Positions 1 to 21,785 of a DNA stretch of 22,476 bases are shown piece by piece. Each line of letters begins with the position of its first letter. Positions within the stretch are counted from its first letter, which is position 1. The translations under genes and the position numbers were made by a program. The notes under the pieces are model-generated. The model saw only the letters and a program-made list of their open reading frames with translations, was not told the origin of the DNA and did not search any database. This DNA is from a virus. The stretch lies in the IMG/VR virus record IMGVR_UViG_3300047562_003017, positions 1 to 22,476 of that record, one strand, 5' to 3'.

Positions 1-3000
1 CTTTCAACCATGTGTATGCGCCAACAGTTTCTGTTAGTTGGTCATTGACAACATTGTCTGCACCAACCGTACCAGAACGATATGCAAGTCCGTTAAACAC
101 AGCGTTGAAGTTCGAACCAGTCAACACGTCACGTTTTACAGCATCAATGATGTAACCAGTGTCGCGTGAGCACTTATCTGCATCATATGTGAAGTAAGTG
201 TTTGCAAGATATGCAACAACTTCTTGTGCAAGGAAGTCACGGTTTTTCTGTAGTTGATTGAATGCGTTAACTTCATCAGTATTACCATGAAGGACTGCAA
301 CCGCATTTTCCGCTACACGAACAAGAGTGTGTACACCACCAGAACCGATGCCAACATTAACTTGAATTGTGTTGACATCTGGAACCCCTGTAATTGTCAA
401 TGGAGTTCTGTATGGTGGATCAGATGGACGTGGGTGTGAAAGTTCGATCAACCCGTTATCTGAATTACAAGTGAATGTAAAGGAACCTGGCATCAACTCT
501 ACACGATCACCAGCAAGCAATCCATGGTTCGGAATTGTTATGGAGAACACTCCAGTAGCTGGTACGTAAGAACCACCAGTCGGTGTTTTGAATTCTGCAT
601 AAGATGCGGGATCGCTATAGACGATAACGTCATCACGGATGCAATTTGGTTTTGCACTTACAAATGTGTGTGCACCAGTGTAACCACCAGCGTTACCAAC
701 ATTAATAGTAAATGTTGTTTCACTTGCAGACTTGATCTTAATAGGTTTCTTGTTGAATGGGTCTGTCGCACGAGGATGTGTAATTTCGATAATTGCACCA
801 TTCGCTGCGGCACAAGAGAACGTCATGCTCTCTGGTTCCAATTCAACATAAGAACCAACCGCAAGATTGTGTACCCCAATGGTAACAACCATATCACCCG
901 TTACTGGGTCATATACTGCAGTTGTTGGAGTATATGTATTCTTGCGTACTTCATTATAGACTGAAACTGCGTCTTCGTCAACACTATAGAACGTATGAGT
1001 ACCAGTATATCCGCCTGCAGGGCCAGGATTTACTGTAATAGTTGTTGCATTTACCGCAGTGATTTCAAGTGGTGTCTTATAAGCTGGGTCAGTACGTCTT
1101 GGGTGAGCGATAATCTGATTGTTTGCACCACACTCAAATCTAAATGATTCAGGTGCAATCAAAATCTTATCATCTGTTGTTAGGTTGTGTACACCAAGAG
1201 TGATAACCATTTCACCAGTTACTGGGTTGTATGTCGCAGTGGTTGGTGTGTATGCACGACCAGAACCTTTCATGATGTGAATGATTTCATCAAATGCTGC
1301 GCCTGCAGTTTGAATTGCAGAACTGTCGTGAACGAGTTGTTTTACTGCGTTGTGTTGTGCAGAAACAAATGTGTGTGCACCAGCATAACCGCCTGCATCG
1401 CCACCGTTAAATGTAATGGTTGTTGTGTTTGCAGCAGTCACAGGAATTGGTTTATCAAACAATGGGTCGCTGACACGTGGGTGAGAAATTTCAACCGTGG
1501 CAGAAGATGTTGCATTAACGCAAGAGAATGTGATACCCTCTTTAGCAAGTTTAATTGCGTCACCAACCTGAATGTTGTGATTAGGAATAGTTAGAATAGT
1601 TTCACCAGTCAGAGGATCGTATGATGCATCTGTAGGTGTGTATTCCGCACTTGTCATGTCAGAGACAAGAGACTTCAACTCCTTAACCGCACCAACTGTT
1701 TCTGGCAACTGATCACCAACAACTTCACTTGCAGTACCGAAGTAATATCCAACACCAGTTTGTACTGAGTTGAAGTTTGTTCCCAATACCATGTCTTGCT
1801 GAACAGCTGGAAGAATGTGTTTTTGAATGTCACGTGCACACTTTTCACTGTCGTAGATGAAATAATTGTTGTCAATCCATCCCATCATGTAGTCTTGGAT
1901 GTACTTCTTGTTAGCCTGTAGTTGTTTACGTGCGTTTCTCTTATCTACAGAAATCGAAGGATCATCACTGAATCTAATACCAGTTCCTACAACTTGAATT
2001 GAATTTTCTAGTGTTCTTTGATAAGCGTGAACACCGTTATATCCGCCCGCGTCACCAGCATTAAATGTGATAGTGTACGGTGTTACAGATAGAACCTGAG
2101 TTGCGTTTTTGAACAGAGGATCAGAAGGACGTGGGTGTGAAATTTCCACAGTCTCAAGAGTTGCAGTATTGGTGCAGCTGTATGTGATACCGAATGGTGA
2201 AATTTCAATAAGATCACCAGCTTCGATATTGTGCAATACATCGAATGTAACAACTGTTACACCAGTTGTTGGATCGTATGTTGACCCAATTGGAGTGTAT
2301 GAATTTTCTGCAAGTCTAACCGCCTCGGCGTCAGCGCTTACAAAGAAGTGAATTCCTGTATAACCCTTGGCTGTACCAACCTGAACAACAATCGTAGTGT
2401 CAGTCACTTCAAGAATAGGAAGTGCTTTCTGATAGGCAGGGTCTGTTGTTCTTGGGTGAACGATTTGTTGTTTCGGAATACCACATTCGAAAGTGAAACT
2501 TTCTGTTTCAAGAACAATTTCTTGCCCTTCCACTAGACGGTGCTTGCCAATTTCGATTTCCATGATACCAGAAATTGGATCATATTCTGCAAAAGTTGGT
2601 GTATAAGTCTTGCGGTTTTCTTCCAACGCATCGATGATGTTATCAAAAGCACGATCTGCACGAATAGAACCGATTGCAGAGTTTTCATCGATGATTTCGT
2701 TTGTTTGTTCTTTTAGTCTCTTATATGCGGCAATCGTTTCATCACGTTGGTTGTTGATAACCTTTGCAGCTGCATTCATGTAATATGCATTACCTGCAGT
2801 AACTGAGTTGTAGTTGGTATCCAACAACATATCACGTGCAACTGCAGGAAGAATGTATTCCTGAGTGTCACGGCGGCACGTCGCACTGTTATATGCGAAG
2901 AATTCGTCGTTGTCTTCGATCCAGTCGATCAACTCATCTTGAATAAACGAACGATTGTCTTGAAGTTGCTTTCTTGCAGCAGTATATGCATTAACAACTT

Positions 3001-3410
3001 CAGTGTTTCCAACTTCTGTCCAGATAATTGGGTTCGCATATTCTTCTCCGTTTTCAAGAATGTTCAACAATTCGTCATAAGAAGTGTTTGCACGCTCAAG
3101 GATTTCTGTGTTTGCGTTACCAAAGATTGTTCCCAAACGACCCTGTAGATAACGGTTTGCACCCGCTGTTTCTTCGAGCTGTTCGCCAGGAACTACGTAA
3201 GAGATTGGTGAACGGTATGTGATACCACTCAAGCGGCCCCAATAGTTAGAACCAGTTTGAATATCTTCTGACAGTTTGTCAAGGATGATACCAGTGTCAC
3301 GATAACACTTCTCTGAGTCATATCCTTGATATCCAAGACCACCACTTGTCGTATTAGACGTTAGGTAATCAACCATATCGTCAATGATATTGTTTGCATT
3401 TAGGAGAATT
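1..3410 (-). repeat. Fibre repeat module B, four copies of about 90 residues
   Basis: Four helical-looking copies lie at about 3130-3410, 2707-2997, 1665-1955 and 1-275 (the last is cut by the window edge). The shared plan is QLQxNxxxIQD, a tyrosine-rich (Y/F)xYDxEKCxRD segment, I(L/I)xAVxxD, then (G/D)(S/T)N(F/Y)NxVxxGxxYY and QLxETVGAxxxLK. The first copy is the most divergent, with YLTSNTTSGGLGYQGYDSEKC at its start. The central Cys-x-Arg-Asp is present in all four. The order along the protein is B B A A B A A A A B. Confidence 0.85.
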
Positions 3411-5722
3411 GTGTCACCGAATGCAGTATTTCCACCCGCAGTAGGGTCAATAACTGCCGATGTATCTCTAGGAGCATAGAAGGTTGTTGTTCCCTTCGCT
3501 CTCATAGAAATGTCACCAAACTGTGTACCAGAGTTGTTAAGTGTAAGTTGTCCACCGTTCAATGCATAGAACGCACAACGGGTAAAGATTGACAATGAAC
3601 CGATACCGTTAATACCCGCACCATCTCTGGCGACATAGCCGAGACCGTTTTGAGTACGAGGTGTGAAACCGAATGTCAATACGTAAGTATAGAGTGAGTC
3701 TGGGTCAAGAACACGGCGGTCTGCAAGCACACATCCACCACCACGACCCACAAGCGGGTTCGGGAAGTCATCGATACCAATAACCGCAATGTTACCTGTA
3801 CCACCAGATTCGGAAATGATTGTGTCACCTACGTTTATTTCACCCTTTAGGTTACGAACATAGATACGATTATCTGACGCAACGTCTTGGTCCCAAGAAA
3901 CGTAACCCTGTGCACCAGAACCAAATACAATTTCATCACCTTCTGCAAAGGTGCCTGTGTGTCCTGGCGCCATGAAGATTTCACGACCAAGGTCGGCAAG
4001 AGTACCTTTGGAGTTAAATGGTTGTAGTGGTGGTTCAACATCCGCACGAAGGAAGTTCGACAACTGGGATGAGTCACGAATATATGGTGAACGTCTTAGT
4101 TTTGCGCCTGGACGATACGCAATCGCGAAACCGCCTTCTGGGTAGTCAAAGTTATCTACTTTCCAATTAGTGTAAGAGAAACCTTGTACGTAACAACCAG
4201 AACCAACTAGAATTGCGTTATTGAATTCGTAGCCAGGCAACGCTTCGATAACTGTTGCGTACTGTCCAGAAGTTGAAGTCAATGAACAGTCGTCTGGAAG
4301 CGCAACGCCACCCTTGGTATAGTAAGTGCCTGGACCACAAGAAATGTGAACTGCGTTGTTCACGTCATTACGGGAATAGACACCGCCTGCTTTTTCAAGA
4401 GCAAGTTCTGCAGCGCGTTCTAGTGTTCTTACGGGTTGTAAGATTGTGCCAGGGTTTCTGTCGTCACCACTTGAAGCTTCAACATAAACCTTCAACGCGG
4501 TTCTTGTTGTTCTGGAGATTTCATCAAAGAATTGACGATAAGTTATCTTCTCAGTTTCACCAGTTTTTACATTCTTGATTGCAAAATATGCATTTTCATC
4601 GATACGAGGTTCAAACTCGTTTGCGATATCCATATTGAAGTCAACAAGTTCTGGACGATTAATTCTTGAGTCATTAATGTCTGCATTTTTGACCTCACCA
4701 CCTTCGAAGGTAGACTGAGAAATGCCTGTGTTGGACATAGAGGAAGAAGTAATTTTCGCATCTTGTAGAGAAATATCTGAGAGTTCACCAGTGAAAGTGC
4801 TGTTTGCAATAACAGAATCTACAATTAGGCCAGTATCAATAGTTGTATTTGTGAATACGTTATTGTTACCAGTCCCATCAGAGAAGTCTGAATTTGTGAT
4901 TGTAAGGTTATTTGCGGTTGAATCGTAGATTTCACCGTTTCTGAATACGGAAACATCAATCTCAAAGTTTGTTGCTACTACGTTATTTGCAGTACCATCA
5001 TTAAACTGTGAATTGGTGATAATTAAATTGTTCGCAGTAGAATCACCAATGAAACCGTCTGTAAATCTTGACTGATCAATTTCAAAATCGTATGCAAAGA
5101 CATTATTTGCGGTACCGTCATTAAACTCTGAGTTCGAAATAATTAAGTTGTTTGCAAACGAATCTGTAATAATACCATTAGCAAAGGTAGATTCAGTTAT
5201 TGCTATGTTGTTTGCAGTTGAGTCTGAAATACTACCATTCGAAAATGTAGATTCGGTGATTGTTATGTTGTTTGCGGTAGAATCTGTGATGACGCTATCA
5301 TCAATAGTGGAGTTGATCAGAGTAACGTTGTTACCTGATACTGTTTCCATCGTACCGAAGTTGAATTCTGAATTAGTGATTACGAGATTGTTCGCAACGG
5401 AATCGTATAGTTCGCCGTCATAAAATACGGAATCTTCGATATCTGCGCGATTAATATCTGTGTCATTGACCGATCCACGATTAAACTCGTTATCGTTCAT
5501 GACGTTGTCTCTGATTAGGTTATCAAAGATCGTCGTGCCACTGATGGAACCACCAGTGATTGTAATTCTATCGAAAATTTCGTACTGAATGGCCTGAACG
5601 AGTTCTCTTCTCGTAATGTTTTTAGTACCGTCATCGCCTTGTACTAGGTTAACGATGACAAATAAGTCTTCCGTCCTAGTATTAGCGCCGGTAATGGAAC
5701 CTAATTCAGAAATTTTTGACAT
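1..5722 (-). CDS. Giant modular tail-fibre-like protein, 3' end outside window
   Basis: An uninterrupted frame starts at ATG 5722 (MSKISELGSITG...) and is still open at base 1, giving at least 1907 residues. I see these regions in order: an N-terminal ~45-residue segment resembling phage fibre attachment ends; about ten 20-residue tandem repeats (residues ~88-308); a segment with VYVEASSGDDRNPGT and HISCGPGTY (~415-465), typical of the start of right-handed beta-helix fibres; a middle domain; then two interleaved repeat modules from residue ~770 onwards. The start has a weak AAGG ribosome site and an AATAAATA octamer 28 nt upstream. The likely role is a peripheral fibre or host-contact structure on the virion. 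This is inferred from modular repeats, size and position after baseplate genes; no receptor-binding or enzymatic motif was recognised. The C terminus, where a binding tip or chaperone would usually be, is not visible. Confidence 0.88.
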   Translation of the reverse strand, partial: MSKISELGSITGANTRTEDLFVIVNLVQGDDGTKNITRRELVQAIQYEIFDRITITGGSISGTTIFDNLIRDNVMNDNEFNRGSVNDTDINRADIEDSVFYDGELYDSVANNLVITNSEFNFGTMETVSGNNVTLINSTIDDSVITDSTANNITITESTFSNGSISDSTANNIAITESTFANGIITDSFANNLIISNSEFNDGTANNVFAYDFEIDQSRFTDGFIGDSTANNLIITNSQFNDGTANNVVATNFEIDVSVFRNGEIYDSTANNLTITNSDFSDGTGNNNVFTNTTIDTGLIVDSVIANSTFTGELSDISLQDAKITSSSMSNTGISQSTFEGGEVKNADINDSRINRPELVDFNMDIANEFEPRIDENAYFAIKNVKTGETEKITYRQFFDEISRTTRTALKVYVEASSGDDRNPGTILQPVRTLERAAELALEKAGGVYSRNDVNNAVHISCGPGTYYTKGGVALPDDCSLTSTSGQYATVIEALPGYEFNNAILVGSGCYVQGFSYTNWKVDNFDYPEGGFAIAYRPGAKLRRSPYIRDSSQLSNFLRADVEPPLQPFNSKGTLADLGREIFMAPGHTGTFAEGDEIVFGSGAQGYVSWDQDVASDNRIYVRNLKGEINVGDTIISESGGTGNIAVIGIDDFPNPLVGRGGGCVLADRRVLDPDSLYTYVLTFGFTPRTQNGLGYVARDGAGINGIGSLSIFTRCAFYALNGGQLTLNNSGTQFGDISMRAKGTTTFYAPRDTSAVIDPTAGGNTAFGDTILLNANNIIDDMVDYLTSNTTSGGLGYQGYDSEKCYRDTGIILDKLSEDIQTGSNYWGRLSGITYRSPISYVVPGEQLEETAGANRYLQGRLGTIFGNANTEILERANTSYDELLNILENGEEYANPIIWTEVGNTEVVNAYTAARKQLQDNRSFIQDELIDWIEDNDEFFAYNSATCRRDTQEYILPAVARDMLLDTNYNSVTAGNAYYMNAAAKVINNQRDETIAAYKRLKEQTNEIIDENSAIGSIRADRAFDNIIDALEENRKTYTPTFAEYDPISGIMEIEIGKHRLVEGQEIVLETESFTFECGIPKQQIVHPRTTDPAYQKALPILEVTDTTIVVQVGTAKGYTGIHFFVSADAEAVRLAENSYTPIGSTYDPTTGVTVVTFDVLHNIEAGDLIEISPFGITYSCTNTATLETVEISHPRPSDPLFKNATQVLSVTPYTITFNAGDAGGYNGVHAYQRTLENSIQVVGTGIRFSDDPSISVDKRNARKQLQANKKYIQDYMMGWIDNNYFIYDSEKCARDIQKHILPAVQQDMVLGTNFNSVQTGVGYYFGTASEVVGDQLPETVGAVKELKSLVSDMTSAEYTPTDASYDPLTGETILTIPNHNIQVGDAIKLAKEGITFSCVNATSSATVEISHPRVSDPLFDKPIPVTAANTTTITFNGGDAGGYAGAHTFVSAQHNAVKQLVHDSSAIQTAGAAFDEIIHIMKGSGRAYTPTTATYNPVTGEMVITLGVHNLTTDDKILIAPESFRFECGANNQIIAHPRRTDPAYKTPLEITAVNATTITVNPGPAGGYTGTHTFYSVDEDAVSVYNEVRKNTYTPTTAVYDPVTGDMVVTIGVHNLAVGSYVELEPESMTFSCAAANGAIIEITHPRATDPFNKKPIKIKSASETTFTINVGNAGGYTGAHTFVSAKPNCIRDDVIVYSDPASYAEFKTPTGGSYVPATGVFSITIPNHGLLAGDRVELMPGSFTFTCNSDNGLIELSHPRPSDPPYRTPLTITGVPDVNTIQVNVGIGSGGVHTLVRVAENAVAVLHGNTDEVNAFNQLQKNRDFLAQEVVAYLANTYFTYDADKCSRDTGYIIDAVKRDVLTGSNFNAVFNGLAYRSGTVGADNVVNDQLTETVGAYTWLK
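316..2605 (-). repeat. Fibre repeat module A, six copies of about 92 residues
   Basis: Six copies of a beta-rich module occur in the giant fibre, at approximately 2330-2605, 2022-2299, 1361-1642, 983-1252, 653-934 and 316-592. Each follows the same plan: YTPT..YDP.TG, then a His in an (N/V)HN(L/I)..GD turn, a Cys in the TF(S/E)C strand, the motif HPR..DP, an ITxxNxGxAGGY strand and a final G-x-H-T-F. Copy 1 is the first translated. Copies 1-2 and 3-6 form two runs separated by one module B. I do not recognise a named domain; the modules probably extend the fibre shaft or form side domains. Confidence 0.88.
4861..5461 (-). repeat. 60-bp / 20-residue tandem repeats, about ten units
   Basis: Within the giant fibre gene the translation repeats with an exact 20-residue period. 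Example units begin STANNLTITNSDFSDG, STANNITITESTFSNG, STANNIAITESTFANG and SFANNLIISNSEFNDG. The core is A-N-N-(L/I)-x-I-x-(N/E)-S-x-F-x-(D/N)-G. Units alternate in part with a more divergent type (VFAYDFEIDQSRFTDG, VVATNFEIDVSVFRNG). Two or three degenerate, slightly shortened units continue down to about 4680. Alternating hydrophobic residues with Asn and Gly at turns fit stacked rungs of a beta-helix or beta-solenoid; that fold is inferred. Confidence 0.85.
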
Positions 5723-5776: not shown

Positions 5777-6745
5777 TCAAAATTCATCCAAGTGATTTGC
5801 ATCATCTGAATAAATTTTTTCACCGTTTTCCAACCGATCTACTTTTTCACTCAATTCCTTTATAGCCTGTATCAATAATGGTATTATGTTATCGTAACGG
5901 ACGGCTTTGTGGCCTTCTTCGTTTATCTCGAAAGTGATATTTGGGAGAACTTCTTCCACTTCTTGGGCTACAACACCCGCCACTCTTTCGTTAGGCCTGT
6001 CGATATAGTTAAAAGTGTATCCTCCAATTGATTTTACTTTATCTAAAGCATTATCAATTAGTTCAAGGTTTTCTTTCAATCTAATATCAGAAATATTCCA
6101 GTTCGTTGCAACGTCACCAGCAAACAAACCGTCTCCAGTGACTGTTAGGTTCCCATTGATAGTAATGTCGTCGTCAAAAGAAAGACCTGCAACCCCACTT
6201 AAACTTCCAGAAAATGTGATGTTGTTTGCAAAAAGATCATCACACGTCACGTCATTGTCGAATGTAGCGTTGTTGCCAGTGATATTTTCTTCTAAAGCAA
6301 TGTTAAAGGTTGACACCGTACCAGAAGGAGAAATAGAAAACTTTCTTTCTCCAGTACCAGTGTCAATAATGAATTCAGCATTGACGGTATCTTCCATACC
6401 AATGTCCCAAGATATCACTCCATCCGTATATCTTGTTTTACCACCAGCTGATGGGAAACGGAAAGTTGCACAGATTCCGTTGGACAACGCATTATGGATT
6501 GTTGGTGAACCGAATGTTACGCTACCACCATTGGTGTCTGCTTCGATAAAATCAGTCGCGACATTAGCGGTAATGAGAGAAGCGTTAAAGTTACCAACAA
6601 GTGTTGCGTTACCAATAGTCGTGTCACCACCAGCCGAAGCGGTCATCGCCTCAGAACGGATGATACCTGTTAATTCGTTTGTTTTGTCAAACCAATTTTG
6701 AAAGGTTTGAGTTACTACGATATTGGCTATTGACGGTTTTGCCAT
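5777..6745 (-). CDS. Tail fibre protein with S74 intramolecular chaperone domain
   Basis: This 322-residue protein has a beta-rich body (roughly residues 35-215, with repeated N.T..GN and DD.T.NG.LTVTGDG strands) and a C-terminal Peptidase_S74 / intramolecular chaperone domain. The domain is identified by SDIRLKENLELI, GYTFNY, VAGVVAQEVEEVLP and RYDNIIPLLIQAIKEL, ending in a short coiled coil. In this family the C-terminal chaperone trimerises the fibre and then cuts itself off just before the Ser of the S-D-x-R-x-K motif; here that is Ser219, with Lys224 as partner, leaving a mature fibre of about 218 residues. Its start overlaps the stop of the preceding 65-residue gene (TAATG), so the two are translationally coupled. 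Likely a short fibre or fibre-tip component of the baseplate region; its attachment partner is not identifiable. Confidence 0.88.
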   Translation of the reverse strand: MAKPSIANIVVTQTFQNWFDKTNELTGIIRSEAMTASAGGDTTIGNATLVGNFNASLITANVATDFIEADTNGGSVTFGSPTIHNALSNGICATFRFPSAGGKTRYTDGVISWDIGMEDTVNAEFIIDTGTGERKFSISPSGTVSTFNIALEENITGNNATFDNDVTCDDLFANNITFSGSLSGVAGLSFDDDITINGNLTVTGDGLFAGDVATNWNISDIRLKENLELIDNALDKVKSIGGYTFNYIDRPNERVAGVVAQEVEEVLPNITFEINEEGHKAVRYDNIIPLLIQAIKELSEKVDRLENGEKIYSDDANHLDEF

Positions 6746-6942
6746 TACTTATTTTCCAACTGTTTTATTTTTTCGCACATTATACGCAAAGTCATTTGAA
6801 TTTCATTGACATCAGACTGAAGTTTGTCTATCTTTCTATAATACATTCTTTCCGTTTTATATTTAGTCAGCGCAGCAGCATCTGTGTTCAATAGAGCACC
6901 AGAATGTTGATCCCTCTTCAGTGTGTCAACTAACTTTGTCAT
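6745..6942 (-). CDS. Small coiled-coil protein, unknown function
   Basis: This 65-residue protein begins MTKLVDTLKRDQHSGALLNTD and has a C-terminal half with heptad-spaced hydrophobics (IDKLQSDVNEIQMTLRIM and following), suggesting a coiled coil. It overlaps the end of the 1818-residue gene by 4 nt (ATGA) and the following fibre start by 1 nt (TAATG), so it is coupled on both sides. That arrangement, with a GAGG site upstream, supports it being a real gene. I do not recognise a family. From position it could be a fibre adaptor, a short bundle protein in the baseplate, or a fibre assembly factor. Confidence 0.7.
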   Translation of the reverse strand: MTKLVDTLKRDQHSGALLNTDAAALTKYKTERMYYRKIDKLQSDVNEIQMTLRIMCEKIKQLENK

Positions 6943-12407: not shown

Positions 12408-14096
12408 TTAAAATTCCATTACGAATTTGAACTCTTCTCTTGAGTTTATGGTTCTAGGTAACGCAAAAAAATCTTCCAAGAAGTATATTCTTCCTGATCT
12501 TTGTGTATAAGTCGGAACTACCACATTATTTGCTACTGGGGTATTTATTCTTATAATTTGTCCCGTTTCGTTACGTAGAGATAAATTCAAATTCAAAGAA
12601 TTTGACGTATTTGGTTGGTTAACATACGGACCCATATACTCAGCGAGGAATATGGTGTTGCTTGTATAATCAATATCGTGAACTGTTGCCTCAAAAACCA
12701 CTTGGTTATTACTGTCTACTTGTTGTACAATAGAATTTATAGTTGCATACGAATAATCGTTAGTTGTTATTGCAATACGATTATCAAAAACCGCTGGTGT
12801 GTTGTTTGCGGCAATTAAATCGTTGTTTGCGTCTCTGAATTCTGGATTTCTAACCAATGCAACAGAGGAATATGTGTTGTTTGCACCAATCAAAAGATTG
12901 TCTTCACCAGTTATATATGCATAAACTCCAAAGTGATGGCAATGGAACTCATCTATCAGGTTTTGATTGTGACCATCTGGTGGCGACAAGATAGCGCGAA
13001 GAATTGCACGTTCATCTGTTCTGGTTGGGTCTGTAGGGTTGAAATCATAAAGAGGGTCCACAACTCTTGCAACAATATTGTTGTATCCAGAACCACGATT
13101 TAGGAGTGTGACACTTCTAATTCTTCCTGTGCTGTCGATAACAGGAACGCCGGCTGCGCCTGATCCATCACCATCAATTTTTATTTTTGGTAAAATGGTA
13201 AATCTTGTGGCGCCGCCTGGGAATATGTATTGTGTGTTACCAGAACCGTCTACGATTGTGTCAAAAATTCTGTATCTGCCAGTTAGGCCTACGTCCGTAC
13301 CAACTCTTATTTCTATACGACCGTTTGCAGTGTTGTAACTATAATAAGTTATGTCAAATAGTTCTGAAACGCCCGTATTCTGATTTACTGCATAAAGAGT
13401 TTGACCATAGTAATAGAAAAATATCTGACTAATTGAAGCATTATCTGGGAGACAAATTATTGAACCAGTGTTGAATGGGTTTTCAAAGAAAGAACCTGTG
13501 GTTTCCCTATACCCGAAGTTATCGTCTGCATTTGTAACAAAAATGTCGGAAACGTTTCCACCACCTGTATTAGCTACAGGGTTCACGTCAAAGGAACCCC
13601 TCAGAGGAATGTAACCCAAAGAATTGTACGCATCAAACTCGATTTCAGTTAGATTGTACATATACTTCCACAAATATCCATCTGCAGTTTGATAAATTTG
13701 ATTGTCGGTGTTTGCATTCCACGCTGGAGGCGAGGTAACCTTTGCCCCATCATTGTTGAACAAACATTTGAAGATTCTATAATCACCAGTATCATTGACA
13801 GTAGGACCTACTACAGCATAGAAGTTTTGATCTTCTAGATTTACTGTATCGTCGTATTGAGTGTATACTCCATCTCTTTGCCAAGGGTAATACTTGATCA
13901 TGAAATGAACATCGTCATTATAGACTTTTTTGCCAAACAAAACTTTCTCTAAGAACTCATTCTTAGAGAATTGAGAGTTTTCGGAATCTAATCTATTAAT
14001 TCCAGACACCATCATATAATAGTTGTTGGACAATATGTCTTCAACAAACAATCTAGTGGCATCTGATTTAAAGTCTGTAGTTAGAATTTCGGGCAT
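12408..14096 (-). CDS. 8: Baseplate wedge protein, gp8-like
   Basis: This 562-residue protein begins MPEILTTDFKSDATRLFVEDI and carries FEDILSNNYYMM-like and TADGYLWKYMYNLTEIE segments that I associate with the gp8 baseplate wedge proteins of T4-like marine phages. T4 gp8 is 334 residues; the marine homologues are longer as I recall, so the size is not a problem. In T4, gp8 dimers clamp gp7 and gp10 in the wedge. The gene starts its own transcription segment: a 44-nt gap with an AATAAATA octamer 34 nt before the ATG and an AGAGAGAAA ribosome site. The following giant structural gene is 12 nt away. The gp8 name rests on position plus short motifs and could be wrong in detail; a baseplate structural role is more secure. 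Confidence 0.62.
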   Translation of the reverse strand: MPEILTTDFKSDATRLFVEDILSNNYYMMVSGINRLDSENSQFSKNEFLEKVLFGKKVYNDDVHFMIKYYPWQRDGVYTQYDDTVNLEDQNFYAVVGPTVNDTGDYRIFKCLFNNDGAKVTSPPAWNANTDNQIYQTADGYLWKYMYNLTEIEFDAYNSLGYIPLRGSFDVNPVANTGGGNVSDIFVTNADDNFGYRETTGSFFENPFNTGSIICLPDNASISQIFFYYYGQTLYAVNQNTGVSELFDITYYSYNTANGRIEIRVGTDVGLTGRYRIFDTIVDGSGNTQYIFPGGATRFTILPKIKIDGDGSGAAGVPVIDSTGRIRSVTLLNRGSGYNNIVARVVDPLYDFNPTDPTRTDERAILRAILSPPDGHNQNLIDEFHCHHFGVYAYITGEDNLLIGANNTYSSVALVRNPEFRDANNDLIAANNTPAVFDNRIAITTNDYSYATINSIVQQVDSNNQVVFEATVHDIDYTSNTIFLAEYMGPYVNQPNTSNSLNLNLSLRNETGQIIRINTPVANNVVVPTYTQRSGRIYFLEDFFALPRTINSREEFKFVMEF

Positions 14097-14140: not shown

Positions 14141-16018
14141 CTATCCCACACGTATTTTTCTACGTGGGTATTGTTGTTTTGTAGAAGAATAGTCGTTATA
14201 GTGAAAATTGTTTTTTACTGTAGAATTATATCTGGTTCTTGTGTTATTCGTTATGTAGTACGGAATAAACACACGTTTTGTGGTTGAACCATAAAGATCA
14301 CTCAAATCTGATCCACCATTTTGAAAATCATTTTCATCAATTCTATTCAAGGCAGAAGAACTGTACAATCTAGCTGAAGTGAAGTTTCCTGCTGTAGGTA
14401 CATTCGTCCAGTCAAAATAATTTTCACTTACTAAACATTCTTTAGCCGATTTCTGCATAAGATCAAGTAATTGTTGTTGAGTCGGATAATCACCACGTGT
14501 TTCGTAAAACCAATCTACAAACAAGGCTGCTGCGCCTGCAGTCCATGGTGCAGCACAACTGGTACCACTAAAATATCCCCATTCACCATCAGGCAAAATA
14601 AAAGTGGGGTAAGAGGTCCACGTGAACGCACCAAACCCCCATATGTCTATGTACTGTCCACGGTTGCTATAGTCGTCGCCAAGAGGGTTTCTGGTACTGT
14701 GTTGACATGCGCCAACAACGATTACATTTGAAGACGCACTTGTTCTACTTCTTGACGGATATTGCGTATATGGACCAGCTGATCCTGTTACAGGACTAAA
14801 CGTGTAACGACCATTTCCATCAACATTAAGATCGATATAATTTATTGTACTGTCAGTTACAATCGTTGTGTCCCATCTTGGATGATTGCGTTTGACGCCG
14901 ACGCCTCCGTTATTGCCTGCACTTTTAAAATGGTATATACTACCATCTGCGACATAACTCGCCAATGTCACATCAAACGTAGTGTCGAAGAAGTTATTGG
15001 GAATTGGTATGTACCATTTATCTGTGGAATCAAAAGGATCATTCAAAACCCTTGGAGCAATGCCTGCGTTAACGAATGCACTTAAGTTACTACCCCAACC
15101 GCCGCCAGGCCTGTTAGTTATTGTTTGGTTTCCTTGATCATCATACGATGTTATTTGTGCAATCTCGTCAACCCTAATTGCAATTTCGTGGTCAACTCCA
15201 CCATAACCCCACGAGCCAGTGGTTATAGTTGCATTTCGTCTTCCTGTCGCGGGATTGATAGGTTTGTTTTTGTGCCAGTTCAGAACGGCGTTGTACACAG
15301 AAGTTACACCATCACCAGAACCACCAATATAAATCACTCTAAGACTACTTACCTTGGCCCAACCGCAGATCAAACCGCCAGCTGCACTTAAAACGCCTAT
15401 CGCATGGTCTGAAAGATAATTTGTTCCGTTTGTGACTTGAAGGTTTGCAGACGCAAAAATAGAACCCCACAAGTTCCAGTCCATTTCAACAAAACGACTC
15501 GCAGCCGAATCATCCAATGCGTCTGGATGATTGACCCAAACGTCATTTGCAACTTCTGGAGTACCCGCTTCAATAGCTACAATATCAACGTATTGTCCTG
15601 CATAGTTTTGACTGATTGTTTGGTTTTCGAGATATGCGTCTTCACCACCGAAAGGTGGACCACCACCTTGGAAATATCCAATTGGGCCCGTATTAGCAGT
15701 TATTTCTTGGTCACTTGAGAGGAAAAACCCCGTGGATGCATATCTTGCACCCTCCAGTGAAACAGAATACCTTGTCAAATAATGTTTCGTCATTGACCTC
15801 GGAACAGGAGAGTCTTCAATCGGCATGTCTTCTTTTTCTACTGCAACGATGCGTTCGCATTTTTTTAGTTTTTCTGCTTCCTCTTCAGTCAGCATCATTG
15901 CAACAACACCATTCAATTGAGGAAGTTCATCCGCAATTTCCATACCGCAACAATCTTCTTCAAGAACATGACTTTGCATGTCCCCGGCGCATAGAACGAT
16001 GTTATATCTTTGTTTCAT
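14141..16018 (-). CDS. Subtilisin-like (S8) serine protease with I9-like prodomain
   Basis: This 625-residue protein has an N-terminal segment (residues 1 to ~65, with LNGVVAMMLTEEEAEKLKK and ERIVAVEKE) that looks like the I9 inhibitor/prodomain of subtilases. A subtilase domain follows: YVDIVAIEAGT (143-153) at the Asp position, SDHAIGVLSAAGG with His205, SAGNNGG with the oxyanion Asn369, and FSGTSCAAPWTAGAAAL with nucleophile Ser487. His, Asn and Ser are all in the expected order and motifs, but the residue aligned with catalytic Asp is Glu150. A ~110-residue C-terminal extension rich in Asn, Ser and Tyr follows. No signal peptide or membrane segment is seen, so it acts in the host cytoplasm or in the virion. 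It lies 3 nt after the gp10-like gene and among baseplate genes, which suggests a virion component or assembly protease; substrates are unknown. Confidence 0.85.
   Translation of the reverse strand: MKQRYNIVLCAGDMQSHVLEEDCCGMEIADELPQLNGVVAMMLTEEEAEKLKKCERIVAVEKEDMPIEDSPVPRSMTKHYLTRYSVSLEGARYASTGFFLSSDQEITANTGPIGYFQGGGPPFGGEDAYLENQTISQNYAGQYVDIVAIEAGTPEVANDVWVNHPDALDDSAASRFVEMDWNLWGSIFASANLQVTNGTNYLSDHAIGVLSAAGGLICGWAKVSSLRVIYIGGSGDGVTSVYNAVLNWHKNKPINPATGRRNATITTGSWGYGGVDHEIAIRVDEIAQITSYDDQGNQTITNRPGGGWGSNLSAFVNAGIAPRVLNDPFDSTDKWYIPIPNNFFDTTFDVTLASYVADGSIYHFKSAGNNGGVGVKRNHPRWDTTIVTDSTINYIDLNVDGNGRYTFSPVTGSAGPYTQYPSRSRTSASSNVIVVGACQHSTRNPLGDDYSNRGQYIDIWGFGAFTWTSYPTFILPDGEWGYFSGTSCAAPWTAGAAALFVDWFYETRGDYPTQQQLLDLMQKSAKECLVSENYFDWTNVPTAGNFTSARLYSSSALNRIDENDFQNGGSDLSDLYGSTTKRVFIPYYITNNTRTRYNSTVKNNFHYNDYSSTKQQYPRRKIRVG
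14145..14168 (-). other. Imperfect inverted repeat at the 3' end of the protease gene
   Basis: Arms CCCACGTA and TACGTGTGGG enclose a six-base A-rich loop on the minus strand; they pair over 8 bp with a 2-nt bulge. The repeat overlaps the last codons of the protease gene and ends just before its TAG stop. No U-run follows, so it is not a standard intrinsic terminator. It may stabilise an mRNA 3' end just upstream of the next promoter, or be chance. Confidence 0.3.
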
Positions 16019-16021
16019 ACC

Positions 16022-17065
16022 TTATTCTTCTAACTTTAGGCCAGTCAAAGTGACGGCAACTGCGCTGGTACTTCCTGACAAATTTGTTACTCTTACAGGA
16101 ATAGTATTACCTGTTTCGACAAACCCATAAACTCCTGGCGTAATTAGGAACGTGTTCGCAGCAGATGAAATAAATTCTGCGATGACACCAGTACCTTCTA
16201 TTGGGTCCGTACCTTGAAGTCTAGAATTATCAGCAGTTCGACTACTAGTGTCTGCATATATGCGAACCCAAGATGCACGATCTACTGCAATTTTGTGAAG
16301 AACGTAAGAAATGCCAAGGTTTCCAAATTCAATATCTGCAGATGCGTTATCCGCAATGCTCGTTGTAGAAACAGCTTGAGTAACACGTGTTGGTGTAAAT
16401 CCACTAACACCACCACCAGAAGTGTTTGCAGTAAAGGTTATCGTATCGGTAGTTGGGTTTGTTGTGATGGTAATACCAGACCCAGCCACAAGTGTTAACG
16501 TATCTGTTGTGGTCTCTGCTACAACATCTGTTTGTCCGCTGACTGCAATTGTACTAAAGGTGTTTGATGCAACGCCACCACCACCGCCACTGACTACTGT
16601 TTCAAAAGTGAAAGTTCCGTTACCATCAGTCATCAAGACTTGACCGTTTGAACCATCCACAATACCTAGGTCCAACAAGTTTCCTGTGTAAGCAACATTC
16701 GCAAGACTGTCAGCATATGACGTAACATCATTATTTGCGTTATCTGTTAAAAGTTTGTTCCACTTCTGGTGAGCATAATATACCGCACCAGTAGAGTGAA
16801 CATGCGCAATACACCCATGGTATGCACTTGGGTTTAATGCATAAAGTTCAGCCTCATCATTCAATAAGAATGATATTGGATTATATACACCCAAAACTTG
16901 AATTGCATTATTGGAAACCATATTGAGTAGGGTATTTGAACCAACACCACCAACTGCACGATAAACTTCATCAAAGTTATCGTTAATTTTGTCCATAGCT
17001 GTTCTTAATGGATCGCCCGTTCCATCGTTTGGTACTGAACCAATATTAACAGTTTGTTTTGCCAT
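16022..17065 (-). CDS. Baseplate/fibre protein with gp10-like N terminus
   Basis: This 347-residue protein starts MAKQTVNIGSVPNDGTGDPL followed by a KINDNFDEVY segment. This matches, from memory, the start of T4 gp10 (NIGNVVDDGTGD...KINENFDELY), a motif shared by several phage baseplate and fibre proteins as an attachment module. The rest is unlike gp10. A VHSTGAVYYAHQKWNKLL segment follows, then a Gly-rich linker (GGGGG near residue 165), beta-rich Ser/Thr/Ala repeats and a compact C-terminal beta domain ending LTGLKLEE. At 347 residues it is much shorter than T4 gp10 (about 600). It has the strongest ribosome site in the window (GAGGAAGG, 7 nt before ATG) and a perfect TATAAATA 29 nt upstream, so strong late expression is likely. 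A small fibre or baseplate appendage is inferred. Confidence 0.7.
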   Translation of the reverse strand: MAKQTVNIGSVPNDGTGDPLRTAMDKINDNFDEVYRAVGGVGSNTLLNMVSNNAIQVLGVYNPISFLLNDEAELYALNPSAYHGCIAHVHSTGAVYYAHQKWNKLLTDNANNDVTSYADSLANVAYTGNLLDLGIVDGSNGQVLMTDGNGTFTFETVVSGGGGGVASNTFSTIAVSGQTDVVAETTTDTLTLVAGSGITITTNPTTDTITFTANTSGGGVSGFTPTRVTQAVSTTSIADNASADIEFGNLGISYVLHKIAVDRASWVRIYADTSSRTADNSRLQGTDPIEGTGVIAEFISSAANTFLITPGVYGFVETGNTIPVRVTNLSGSTSAVAVTLTGLKLEE

Positions 17066-17131: not shown

Positions 17132-19432
17132 TTATACTGACGAATCATTATCTGATGTGATCAAAATTTGATCCACATAGATATTGTCCATGTCAGAAGT
17201 AAGATTTGCAGTATTACCGATATCCAATGGTGAAGTTGATTCGCCATCGTCGTTAAATATACGGATAAATCTTTGTTTCACACCATTAACGTCTGGTCCA
17301 GCTCTAAACTTACGATTGTAGTAGAATTCACCAAACAGTTTTGTACCTGCAGTGTGCATGGTGTCTTTGAAGAAATCCTCGTATTGAGGAAGACCCATCA
17401 TGCTACGAATTTCATAAGAGTATTCTTGATAGTAATTTGAGTCTTGAATTTTCATCGAAGAATCAAAATATGAATAGTTATTCGCACCATCAACTCTATA
17501 ACCATTTAGGTGAGCTTCAAAATCAGACCAATAACCCTCTGTCACACCTTGGGAATCAGCTGTAATTGTTCCCCTAGCTACTTGAATATTATTGTTTGCA
17601 AGATAACCAATTTCGTTGGATGTGTATCCAAATCCAGAGTTGAAAATTCTGGCTTCTTTAATTTTACCAATCGCGAATTCTGTTTCTGCGTCGATTACTG
17701 CGTTATCACCAAAATTTCTAGAACTGTAGTCTGTTTCGACACCTAGAACGTTGAACACATCATTGTTTGGTCTTACAATATTGTTTGAACCACTAAATCC
17801 ATAATAAGCATATGGAGTTACTGTGATGTAACCAACTGATGTGTTGATACCACGAACAATACCCTGAACAGAAGTGTTGGCTTCTGAAATGATTTCTCCA
17901 ATGTTAAACGACCCTGCAGATGCAGGCGTTGTCAACTGAATAATTTGATCTTTGCGTTCAAAGATTTTCATTTGACTGTCTTGCGCAATTGCAAACACGT
18001 CATTTGTATAATTGATGCCTGGATCAATATTTCTGAAAATATCAATCGCCCCAATATCGAATGGAGTCAAGTCAAATGCTTCATCCAATGGCGTTGCAAG
18101 ATTAACTGGGTCTGCAACTCCAGACATAGGTTGTGTCGCAGGCGGATCATTGTAGTTTGAAGCGTTGATTGAAACAAGAAGGAACGGTTGTATAGGGTCC
18201 GTTATCAGCGAGACGGTTTCGATGTTTCTAATTACAGCTGTAACTTGAGTGTTCGCATCTGGTGGACTACCATCTGGATACAGAGGTCCAGGCGAACTAG
18301 AGTTCTTATTTGTGATATTAATAAAAGCAATATCTGTATTTGAAAAATCTCTACGGCGTAGTTGTGGTGCTGCATTTGGGTCGAATGTATCTCCATCATT
18401 CATCTTGACGCCGATAGCGACTTCGCTGAAACCAGTCAAAATGCCTTCGTTTCCAAATCTGTCGCCGATTGTTTCACCCAACTCCCACTGAGTGTTCACT
18501 GAAGCCGTATCAAGGATGACAACTTGGTCACTGACAAGTAGTCTTGTGTTTTCTACTGTATATCCGAAACCACCATCGATAATTTCGTATGCGATTGTGC
18601 CAGTAATCTCATCTGAAATTGCTGTAACAATTGCACGACCGCCGTAACCAAATTCACCTTCCACATCAAATAAATCACCAATGTTATTATTGGTCGTCGC
18701 AAAAGGCCAAGCTGTGTCAATGTCTATTCTAACTAGAGAACCATTGACTTTTCCAAAAGAAACTGTTTCCCCATTAATTGTGCAAAGAATATCATCATAT
18801 TTTATATAACTGCCTTGCAAGTTATCGATGTAAATAATAGGTGTGATAATACCATTCAAAAGAATGAAATTGATTTTATTTACAGACGACTTTGCACCAG
18901 AGGTCGAACCATTAATGTTTCTGCCTAATAAATCAAGGTATGTGTATTCTTTATTTGATTTGGAAATAAATTTCTTTTCGATGGTATTTGGAAACATCTG
19001 CAAAAATGTACCTGTTCTCCAATTAGATGAAGAAGTTTTAAACATTTTTTGTGCAGGGTAATAAACTTCGATATCCTCTTGATAGAAGATTCTGAAAAAC
19101 AATTTAATACCTTGTTCCGTACCCTTTGATCTGTACAGATCCATAATGTTTTTTACGACAAAAACAACCTGATCTTCTTTTAATGGCAGACCCGCAAGAA
19201 ATTTTCTTTGCCAATGGATAACCATGCTACTTAAAGTAGAAGAAACATCACGGTATTCGAATATTCTACGAATGTTATATACTGATTGATTTGTTTCCGT
19301 TTCTAGGAACGTGTAATAATCTCTTACAAGTTGAATTAATTCTGGACCATACTCCTTATACAGCGCAGGAAATTGCGCATCAACAAAGAAGGATACGGTT
19401 TTAAGAATTTCTGCCTGATTATAAGTTGCCAT
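17132..19432 (-). CDS. 7: Baseplate wedge protein in the gp7 position
   Basis: This 766-residue protein directly follows gp6 (TAATG overlap), the place of the wedge initiator gp7 in T4-like phages. Its first ~150 residues (FPALYKEYGPELIQLVRDYY, FLETETNQSVYNIRRIFEYR, MDLYRSKGTEQGIKLFFRIF, EDIEVYYPAQKMF) form a helical domain that recurs in phage baseplate/structural proteins. Beyond this it is beta-rich, with GFGYTVEN and GFGYTSNE turns like those in gp6/gp8-class proteins. T4 gp7 is 1032 residues, so this version is shorter, and I cannot align it to T4 gp7 by eye. The name is therefore positional. A GGTGG ribosome site lies in the Gly-rich 3' end of the gp6 gene. Structural baseplate role likely; gp7 identity moderate. 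Confidence 0.6.
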   Translation of the reverse strand: MATYNQAEILKTVSFFVDAQFPALYKEYGPELIQLVRDYYTFLETETNQSVYNIRRIFEYRDVSSTLSSMVIHWQRKFLAGLPLKEDQVVFVVKNIMDLYRSKGTEQGIKLFFRIFYQEDIEVYYPAQKMFKTSSSNWRTGTFLQMFPNTIEKKFISKSNKEYTYLDLLGRNINGSTSGAKSSVNKINFILLNGIITPIIYIDNLQGSYIKYDDILCTINGETVSFGKVNGSLVRIDIDTAWPFATTNNNIGDLFDVEGEFGYGGRAIVTAISDEITGTIAYEIIDGGFGYTVENTRLLVSDQVVILDTASVNTQWELGETIGDRFGNEGILTGFSEVAIGVKMNDGDTFDPNAAPQLRRRDFSNTDIAFINITNKNSSSPGPLYPDGSPPDANTQVTAVIRNIETVSLITDPIQPFLLVSINASNYNDPPATQPMSGVADPVNLATPLDEAFDLTPFDIGAIDIFRNIDPGINYTNDVFAIAQDSQMKIFERKDQIIQLTTPASAGSFNIGEIISEANTSVQGIVRGINTSVGYITVTPYAYYGFSGSNNIVRPNNDVFNVLGVETDYSSRNFGDNAVIDAETEFAIGKIKEARIFNSGFGYTSNEIGYLANNNIQVARGTITADSQGVTEGYWSDFEAHLNGYRVDGANNYSYFDSSMKIQDSNYYQEYSYEIRSMMGLPQYEDFFKDTMHTAGTKLFGEFYYNRKFRAGPDVNGVKQRFIRIFNDDGESTSPLDIGNTANLTSDMDNIYVDQILITSDNDSSV

Positions 19433-21369
19433 TAGTAATATCCACCACCTGCTCCACCCGCAGAACCAGAACCGCCGACACTTGAACTAACTACTGAGGT
19501 GCCAGCTGGTGCGACCACAACCACTGCTTCGGTGCTGTTTCTCGTTGTGGTAGTCGTTGATGTTTTCACTCCATCTACGTATACATTGACACGAACATCT
19601 TCATCGCGGATTAAGAAAACTCTACCTTTTGGTGATCTAATATCATCTTCTTTTGTGTTTGCATAGATTTTAATTGCAGCGCCTGGGTAACTTTCTGTTT
19701 CGAAGTTAATCAATTTTACCTCACCAGTAACGTAATCCACAGTACCCGCATTTGGGTTTACAATCTGTGGGTTTGTTCTGTCGTCTGTCACGATTTGAAT
19801 ATTTCCACGACCATCATCTTGGAAGAAGACACAAGTCCCGTTTTGATCAAAAACACTACTTACGATAGCTGGTTTGTAATTTGCAAATCCTGTGGAGACA
19901 GAATAAGCATAAGGACGTAGAAGTTCTGTACCAAATCTGAAGCTTGGATTAGAGACGATGTTAATTGTTGGCGAGAATTCAATTATAGGTTTTGCATCTA
20001 TTGAATTACTTTCAATCGCAGTATCGATATCATCGATTTGTTTGGAAAGTTTAGACAAACGCAGGATTGCTCCAAACGTATTCAAATTGGTTAAAGACCA
20101 ATTTTTAATTGTGTTGCGTACTAAAGTTTCAATCTGCCCCGCAGACTTTTCTGTTTCTTTAGAAGTGTAATAAACATTAACCATCAAGTCTGCATACAAG
20201 AAGTCAGTCTTGACAAAGAATGGTTCAATAGTCAAGGGGGTGCGTTCTTTTAGGAATTCAATATAAGAATTTGCAAGTGTCTGAGAAATTAATTGTGCGT
20301 TGTCGTTTAGATAAACGCTAATTGCTACCTTACCAAACTGTGGAGGATCAAGCGCATCCCCACCGAATGCTTGTACTGCCGAGATTTCGGGGAATTGTTG
20401 TTTCAATAGAATTTCATAATCGTTTGTCGTGATTGCACGATCTTGAATTTGTAAAGCCTTTGGTGCATTGAACTTAATACTATCAATAGTTTCTCTTTCT
20501 GCGCCACCAGCTGCTACTTGAACTGTCGTTACTGTAATTTGAACATTTGGAACAAAAGAAGTTGTAAATGAGTTCGCACCGTTAGGTTCCGCACCACTAC
20601 AAATTCTATAACGCACTTTTACGTCTTCGAACTCAGAAGGTTGAAGTCCAAATATGTTATTTCCAAAATAAATGTTATAACGATTGTCGAAGTAAGGTTC
20701 GATGTAGAAAACAGGGTCTGTCGGTCCTACACCAAAGATGTTTGTTCTGTACTGGAAGACATTTTGGTCTTCAGTCGCTTCTGCATCGATGAAACACACG
20801 ATAGAATCTGTATCAACTTCTGGGTTAGAAAGTGCAACTCTCAATACACCATCGTCGTCAACCAAAAACCCTTCACGTTCAAAACTTGCTAACATTTCAC
20901 CTTCGAAGATTTCTACCTCGCCGGTTTCGAAAGTAGTAGGTCCAGTCTTTCTCGCAACGTAAGTTTCGTTTGTCACGAAATTATAAGTTGTACCCAAATA
21001 TGTCGTTGTGAACTCAGTGTATGTTGGGATTACCACTGTTTGATCTGTAATGGTTCTTTGAGGATCGTCAATACGTATTCTGACAACAGCCTTTGCAGAC
21101 TTACGTGAACGAGGAAGGTAATTGAGTTCTTTAGCATGTGACACAACGCTATTGCGCAACATTGCAGAGTCGAGAAACATCTCGTTAATTGCCATGTTGG
21201 TATAAAAGTTGTTGTGGTATGTGTTATATGCAAGAACATCCAACAAGACACTCATGTTCGATCCTTCAAAGTTGTAATCTTTGAATTGAGTTTGGGATCG
21301 TAAGTATGCTTTTAACTGATTTTTGACTGCTTCAAAATCCAGTTCAACTATTGGTGTTGGCGTTGCCAT
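19432..21369 (-). CDS. 6: Baseplate wedge subunit gp6
   Basis: This 645-residue protein (T4 gp6 is 660) has the conserved gp6 N-terminal region: DFEAVKNQLKAYLRSQ, FEGSNMSVLLDVLAYNTYHN, MAINEMFLDSAMLRNSV and AKELNYLPRSRKSA. In T4, gp6 dimers join neighbouring wedges into the continuous inner ring of the baseplate; the family is related to phage gpJ-type baseplate proteins. Mid-protein segments such as ALQIQDRAITTNDYEILLKQ also fit baseplate J-like proteins. The start overlaps the gp25 stop (TAATG), with a GAGAGG ribosome site inside gp25, and the stop overlaps the next start the same way, so wedge proteins are translated coupled. Unusually, the C terminus ends in a Ser/Gly tail of about 25 residues (SSSVGGSGSAGGAGGGYY) after a run of Val and Thr. 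Confidence 0.9.
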   Translation of the reverse strand: MATPTPIVELDFEAVKNQLKAYLRSQTQFKDYNFEGSNMSVLLDVLAYNTYHNNFYTNMAINEMFLDSAMLRNSVVSHAKELNYLPRSRKSAKAVVRIRIDDPQRTITDQTVVIPTYTEFTTTYLGTTYNFVTNETYVARKTGPTTFETGEVEIFEGEMLASFEREGFLVDDDGVLRVALSNPEVDTDSIVCFIDAEATEDQNVFQYRTNIFGVGPTDPVFYIEPYFDNRYNIYFGNNIFGLQPSEFEDVKVRYRICSGAEPNGANSFTTSFVPNVQITVTTVQVAAGGAERETIDSIKFNAPKALQIQDRAITTNDYEILLKQQFPEISAVQAFGGDALDPPQFGKVAISVYLNDNAQLISQTLANSYIEFLKERTPLTIEPFFVKTDFLYADLMVNVYYTSKETEKSAGQIETLVRNTIKNWSLTNLNTFGAILRLSKLSKQIDDIDTAIESNSIDAKPIIEFSPTINIVSNPSFRFGTELLRPYAYSVSTGFANYKPAIVSSVFDQNGTCVFFQDDGRGNIQIVTDDRTNPQIVNPNAGTVDYVTGEVKLINFETESYPGAAIKIYANTKEDDIRSPKGRVFLIRDEDVRVNVYVDGVKTSTTTTTRNSTEAVVVVAPAGTSVVSSSVGGSGSAGGAGGGYY

Positions 21370-21785
21370 TATCTTGTCCTCTCTAGTATCACATCAAGTG
21401 ATATTGGCTGTTCTCTATTGTTTATGTAGAACAATACGTTGATATATACTTCGTTTGCATCAAGTGAACCAGATACGGTAACATCAATAATGTCAGCACG
21501 AGGTTCGTAAATTTCTAATGTTGTTCTAACACGATCTTTAATGAGTTCCAAAACAGCAGGCGTCAAGTTTTCAAAAAGTAATTCTTTTAATCCCGCCCCC
21601 AGATTGGGTTGCATTAAACGTTCCCCACGGTCAGTCATCATGAGATTACGCATAGCTTCTTTCACTGCGTCCTCGTCTCTTGTAACCGCAAGGTCGTCTG
21701 TCAAAAGATTAAGTTCCAGATCTTTTTTAAAATCTGAATACAGACTAATCTTTTTTGTTTGTGGCGTAAAAACGTTTAATGTCAT
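21369..21785 (-). CDS. 25: Baseplate wedge subunit gp25
   Basis: This 138-residue protein (T4 gp25 is 132) carries the gp25/GpW family signature: MMTDRGERLMQPNLGAGL, LLFENLTP and the EPR motif at residues 94-96 in EIYEPRADIIDV. The EPR core is shared with TssE of type VI secretion, and in T4 gp25 sits at the inner wedge next to gp6 and gp53, starting sheath assembly. It is one base from the hub gene upstream and overlaps gp6 downstream by one base. A GGAAAG ribosome site precedes the ATG. The assignment is secure from motif, size and neighbours. Confidence 0.92.
   Translation of the reverse strand: MTLNVFTPQTKKISLYSDFKKDLELNLLTDDLAVTRDEDAVKEAMRNLMMTDRGERLMQPNLGAGLKELLFENLTPAVLELIKDRVRTTLEIYEPRADIIDVTVSGSLDANEVYINVLFYINNREQPISLDVILERTR

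Follow-up and report, generated by a model that had tools for sequence, protein, structure and literature searches.

What would a subtilisin-like protease be doing among the baseplate genes of a T4-like phage? The question arises from a virus record of 22,476 bases, the whole of which was analyzed and is referred to here as the window. It comes from a marine, cyanophage-like virus, and its minus strand carries a T4-like baseplate block. The protease gene (14141..16018, minus strand) is an intact ORF encoding 625 aa; the product scores above the gathering score of PF00082, its predicted structure is a subtilase fold, and it belongs to a clade of S8-like proteins in which a catalytic Asp is replaced by Glu. 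The first-pass annotation had placed the gene correctly, 3 nt from a gp10-like gene and ahead of a gp8-like gene, and left the strand unstated; the plus strand of 14141-16018 holds many stops, and the ORF is open on the minus strand. The reading that we favor, and to which we give about an even chance, is that the product is a virion-borne subtilisin-fold protease with a Glu150-His205-Ser487 triad, which uses its tail to dock on the C-terminal domain of the gp10-like protein (gp10C) and cuts a host surface protein during adsorption.

The neighboring genes, all on the minus strand, give the locus its baseplate character. Upstream lie a gp25-like baseplate wedge gene (21369..21785; PF04965, E 2.7e-15; PHROG 261), a gp6-like baseplate wedge gene (19432..21369; PHROG 219, E 5.6e-144; PF21379) and a further baseplate wedge gene (17132..19432; PHROG 17744, E 4.8e-94), followed by the gp10-like baseplate or tail-pin gene that is the partner of the protease (16022..17065). 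The gp10-like protein (347 aa; PHROG 677) has a T4_gp9_10_N domain (PF07880) at residues 3-42 (E 4.7e-7), and its gene ends 3 nt upstream of the protease gene. The gp8-like gene (12408..14096; PHROG 438, baseplate wedge subunit, E 1.4e-44) starts 44 nt downstream, and a gene of 1818 aa (6939-12395) belongs to the same block. Farther along the same strand are a fiber gene (5777..6745), which matches tail fiber PHROGs and whose C-terminus, judged by eye from the sequence, resembles an S74-like intramolecular chaperone, and an ORF of at least 1907 aa (2..5722) that runs off the end of the window, contains TESTFSNGSISDSTANN-type repeats and probably encodes a fiber or baseplate protein. No homology of the protease to T4 gp21 was found, as its Pfam and PHROG matches are to subtilases or tail fibers and none is to a prohead protease.

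The assignment to the subtilases rests mainly on structure. The PF00082 match (32.3 bits against a gathering score of 21.8, E 8e-8) covers residues 404-525 only. An AlphaFold2 model built on 68 relatives (pTM 0.78) was compared with solved subtilases, and the best match had a Z of 30.6 with an rmsd of 2.6 over 272 residues, a likeness far beyond chance; the strongest matches were proteinase K-like enzymes and PCSK9 (Z 28-31). Structure prediction against subtilases had been proposed as a check on the initial annotation, and it bears the fold out. The catalytic domain, matched to the proteinase K-like enzymes, spans approximately residues 130-525 (14444..15631, minus strand) and forms the core of the model, where most 10-residue blocks have a pLDDT >70. 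Residues 1-66 (15821..16018, minus strand) form a putative I9-like propeptide. Within it, residues 1-62 are predicted to run strand-helix-strand-strand-helix-strand, an order that fits the alpha-beta sandwich of an I9 propeptide. The Pfam model PF05922 has no match in the window protein and weak matches in 3 of the 68 relatives (best E 0.056), and an I9-like prodomain is plausible from the predicted secondary structure. A PF08793 (2C_adapt) match at residues 247-261 was below the cut-off and is regarded as spurious. Nor is the protein an S53 peptidase, as it keeps His205 and has no PF09286 match.

Whether the fold still houses an enzyme depends on the catalytic residues, which were compared across 100 non-redundant relatives. 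His205 at the catalytic base position (15404..15406), Asn369 at the oxyanion-hole position (14912..14914) and Ser487 at the nucleophile position in the motif SGTSCAAP (14558..14560), all encoded on the minus strand, are invariant in 100 of 100. The place of the catalytic Asp32 is taken by Glu150 (15569..15571, minus strand); this residue is Asp in 87 of the 100 and Glu in all 13 members of the window protein's own clade. The residue following the nucleophilic Ser separates the same two groups, as Cys stands there in all Glu members (GTSC) and in none of the Asp members (GTSM, GTSA or GTSS), and the residues after His205 differ as well, with HGTHVAG or a similar motif in most Asp members and H-x-x-G-(V/T)-LS in Glu members. 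The earlier description of a complete S8-type protease therefore holds for the subtilase fold and for His205, Asn369 and Ser487, but because the equivalent of Asp32 is Glu150, the protein is not a canonical complete S8 and is filed as an S8-derived Glu variant.

The Glu variant is a lineage of its own. Its 13 non-redundant proteins, which include one from phage S-CAM1, all retain the Glu, His, Asn, Ser and Cys488, although only 67 of 625 alignment columns, the catalytic ones included, are invariant and the window protein is about 31% identical to the other members. The clade is monophyletic with a support of 1.0 in a tree computed without the two diagnostic columns, and the window protein is its deepest branch. 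Sequencing error or decay at Glu150 can be dismissed, since 13 non-redundant proteins have the same residue, and the contigs and isolates that encode them are independent, and Asp145 is not a substitute for the lost Asp because it is invariant among Asp-type members as well. No Glu-type relative was found in bacteria or archaea by a pattern-based, non-exhaustive search of 84,980 genomes, in which none of the 109 pattern hits encoded a relative. Domain composition varies in the wider family: S-CAM1-type Glu proteases (L006, L015, L017, L019, L021 and L025) have a plastocyanin/cupredoxin-like domain, missing from the window protein, inserted between Glu and His, and other S8 members carry such a domain at the C-terminus instead. 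Two contigs, L053 and L057, have a tandem pair of S8-like genes, the first with a GTSA nucleophile motif.

Judged from conservation, the constellation argues for selection for catalysis in an S8-like family, and certain lipases and esterases work with a Glu-His-Ser triad. With the canonical Asp gone, activity could nevertheless be weak or single-turnover. An alternative is that, like PCSK9, the protein cleaves its propeptide at most once and thereafter acts, mounted on gp10C, as an adhesin or receptor-binding tip, with general protease activity missing throughout the Glu clade. The change of Asp to Glu and the presence of PCSK9 among the strong fold matches speak for such a binder, as do the occurrence of gp10C on fiber and baseplate proteins and the fact that another family found in the same genomic slot, GNTGW, lacks a recognizable enzyme domain. 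Against it, every Glu member keeps the His, Asn and Ser, and in one lineage the slot is filled by an S53 protease with its catalytic residues intact. We consider the binder unlikely, and retain an active protease as the preferred reading.

The second line of evidence concerns the gene next door. The gp10C domain, about 120 residues long (approximately residues 223-347 of the gp10-like protein; 16025..16399, minus strand; PHROG 15343 and 9627), is predicted to be a beta sandwich, mostly with a pLDDT >90. The C-terminal part of the gp10-like protein has no Pfam match and only generic jelly-roll matches (Z <8), and we propose gp10C, a portable jelly-roll, as the docking domain for the protease. 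A search with gp10C alone found 80 IMG/VR loci with 81 gp10C genes, 79 of which have an S8 gene directly next. Since that query drew on protease-linked copies and was biased accordingly, a second query was made from copies without an S8 gene next (isolates S-BM3, S-SCSM1 and Sf-CH1b, and the first copy in L145); the next gene in this sample was S8 in 49 cases, GNTGW in 27 and another in 1. Pooling gave a non-redundant set of 86, in which the next gene was S8 in 67, GNTGW in 16 and something else in 3, with one at a contig end. The three exceptions were the S53 gene of L157, an L145 gene with a GNTGW-type N-terminus and an incomplete gene in L203, so that with L145 counted as GNTGW the 86 cases comprise 67 S8, 1 kumamolisin-type S53 and 17 GNTGW. 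The isolates with S8 after gp10C are S-CREM1, S-H38, S-RSM4, S-WAM2, S-CAM1, S-CAM4, S-H9-1, S-MbCM7, Sf-FR1 and ACG-2014i.

Proteins with a gp10C domain vary in length between 215 and 1377 aa and differ in their N-termini (T4 gp9/10-like, Mtd_N, collagen-like and head-fiber-like). The protease gene is not confined to the baseplate block. It is one half of a near-obligate, mobile two-gene cassette whose other half, gp10C at the end of the upstream protein, recurs on unrelated fiber proteins. Distances between gp10C sequences correlate with those between proteases (r 0.47, shuffled maximum 0.16), a correlation to which we give little weight because adjacent genes are co-inherited; the gp10C partners of the Glu-type enzymes were not recovered as a single clade (best clade, 8 of 13). 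The GNTGW proteins, the main alternative to a protease after gp10C, are a large family without a Pfam match, a recognizable enzyme domain or the C-terminal tail described below (e.g., L177:5380-7203, L179:5388-7355, L182:5383-7677 and L184:5365-8151), and are possibly another tip module.

Genes for fiber chaperones usually lie directly downstream of the fiber gene, and the arrangement of the cassette would also suit a non-catalytic assembly chaperone for the gp10C trimer built on a subtilase scaffold. Invariant catalytic His, Asn and Ser residues and replacement by an S53 enzyme would be unexpected of such a chaperone, however, and several siphovirus genes with gp10C-like domains (from PSS2, S-CBS2 and S-CRES) have no protease downstream. 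We regard this explanation as highly unlikely.

How might the protease dock? Its last residues (593-625; 14144..14242, minus strand) are predicted to be disordered (pLDDT <50) and end in QQYPRRKIRVG. Proteases linked to gp10C share a tail with the approximate consensus K-x-R-P-x-S-G-x-V-(Y/F/W)-P-R-x-(R/K)-I-R-R, and the core motif [YFW]PR follows the catalytic domain in 100 of 103 gp10C-linked S8 proteins versus 0 of 21 unlinked S8 relatives, a statistic that is not phylogenetically independent because the linked and unlinked proteins fall largely in different clades. That the tail tracks gp10C rather than the rest of the S8 family suggests, at the level of sequence, stable docking, and we propose the tail as the docking tag. 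It is not a feature of all occupants of the slot, as the GNTGW family shows.

A replacement in the L157 lineage bears on both the tail and the enzyme. In the 7 contigs of this lineage, the place after gp10C is taken by a full-length S53 protease of the kumamolisin type (PDB match E 6e-59), in which a propeptide (Pro-kuma_activ) and the S53 catalytic residues are present. The enzyme was noted at L157:2024-3667 and in L271-L277. A gp10C gene lies upstream in 6 of the 6 contigs that reach it, and the S53 tail is NKQRYPRYTT. If proteolysis is what the slot requires and the tail is what plugs the enzyme in, one would expect to meet a second protease family there, carrying the same tail. The replacement was seen in a single lineage, and S53 has the same overall fold as S8 (clan SB). 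Among 50,697 records of isolated phages, none matched the S53 enzyme.

The median gap between the gp10C gene and the next gene is 1 nt. Such immediate adjacency would also fit a maturation protease, one that trims gp10C or a different tail protein while the particle is being assembled, without having to remain in the finished virion; phages do possess self-cleaving fiber chaperones such as S74. Conservation of the C-terminal tail with gp10C, and not in other S8 proteins, points instead to stable docking. Records of virion proteins weigh on the same side. In the S-SCSM1 record, gp140, a GNTGW protein and thus one of the large proteins that also fill the slot, is tagged 'virion protein', as are gp144, a distant Asp-type S8 relative that continues into a long fused C-terminal part, and gp145, the partner encoded upstream of it. 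Mass spectrometry of S-SCSM1 virions identified 45 proteins (PMC9602691), and since 47 'virion protein' tags were counted in the record, the tag follows that list only roughly. The gp144 tag is moreover indirect for the window protein, because its subfamily has neither gp10C nor the YPR tail. Assembly-stage trimming is, on balance, quite unlikely. A virion-borne protease, one of the roles suggested in the first-pass annotation, is the most likely role; the tagged S8 relative stands behind it, while presence in this particular virion is something that we infer.

Computation establishes the fold, the conserved Glu-His-Asn-Ser constellation, the tail motif and the cassette; from these we infer the catalysis, the docking and the substrate. 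We envisage the following sequence for a tail-docked protease. Synthesis would yield a precursor that begins with an inhibitor-like domain, and the enzyme would be active with Glu in place of Asp. Its disordered tail would bind the jelly-roll end of the gp10-like protein encoded upstream, and docking would bring the enzyme to the edge of the baseplate, where it may cut a protein on the host surface at adsorption, much as tailspike depolymerases act on surface sugars. If this is true, it bears on how cyanophages pass host surface proteins, a little-understood step. The conserved and divergent Ser-His-Glu clade makes a third natural solution directly testable, and the gp10C-protease cassette, together with the exchange of S8 for S53 with the same tail, predicts a general way of mounting proteases on the tails of marine phages.

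The presence of an S8 gene at this locus is not new, since cyanophage homologues are already annotated as subtilisin-like proteases or peptidases, and S8 peptidases were noted in P-HM1 and P-HM2 in 2010 (PMC3037559). A search of open-licence papers, weak evidence in itself, found none on a Glu-His-Ser subtilase or a tail-borne subtilase, and the Glu clade, the gp10C cassette and docking module, the tail motif and the S53 swap appear to be undescribed. The conserved locus anticipated in relatives does exist, with S8 genes directly after a gp10-like gene in S-H38, S-CREM1 and many IMG/VR contigs. The proteins of S-H38 (QPB07966.1, 'subtilisin-like serine protease') and S-CREM1 (SCREM1_165, 'peptidase') are homologous to the window protein, are encoded directly after a gp10-like gene with gp10C and have a YPR-type tail, but they have the canonical Asp-His-Ser triad and GTSM, are about 25% identical and are separated from gp8 by one extra gene. 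The S-CAM1 'tail fiber protein' SXBG_00005 (PHROG 15006) shares the Glu clade, GTSC and a gp10C-bearing gene immediately upstream, but lies in another tail/fiber block, has 751 aa, including a cupredoxin-like domain inserted between Glu and His, and is 33% identical. P-SSM2 PSSM2_297 and S-SCSM1 gp144 likewise follow a fiber-type gene directly, but have an Asp triad, another C-terminal domain in the upstream protein and no YPR tail. A second S8 subfamily with a VVIQDSG motif (L033, L036, L039, L048, L059, L062 and L085) was also seen after fiber genes with other C-terminal domains; the upstream proteins end in, for example, NGAWVDLH or DGSAWNALY, and neither gp10C nor the YPR tail is present.

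Among better-known enzymes, the proteinase K-like subtilases and PCSK9 have the fold in common with the window protein (Z 28-31), but theirs is an Asp triad and they are not virion proteins. In one viral lineage, a kumamolisin-like sedolisin (S53) takes the position after gp10C and carries the same tail, but it has a Ser-Glu-Asp triad and a kumamolisin-type propeptide. Tailspike depolymerases have a beta-helix fold, act on polysaccharide and are not separate docked proteins; the likeness that we propose lies in the mode of action, in which a surface polymer is cut by an enzyme carried at the edge of the tail.
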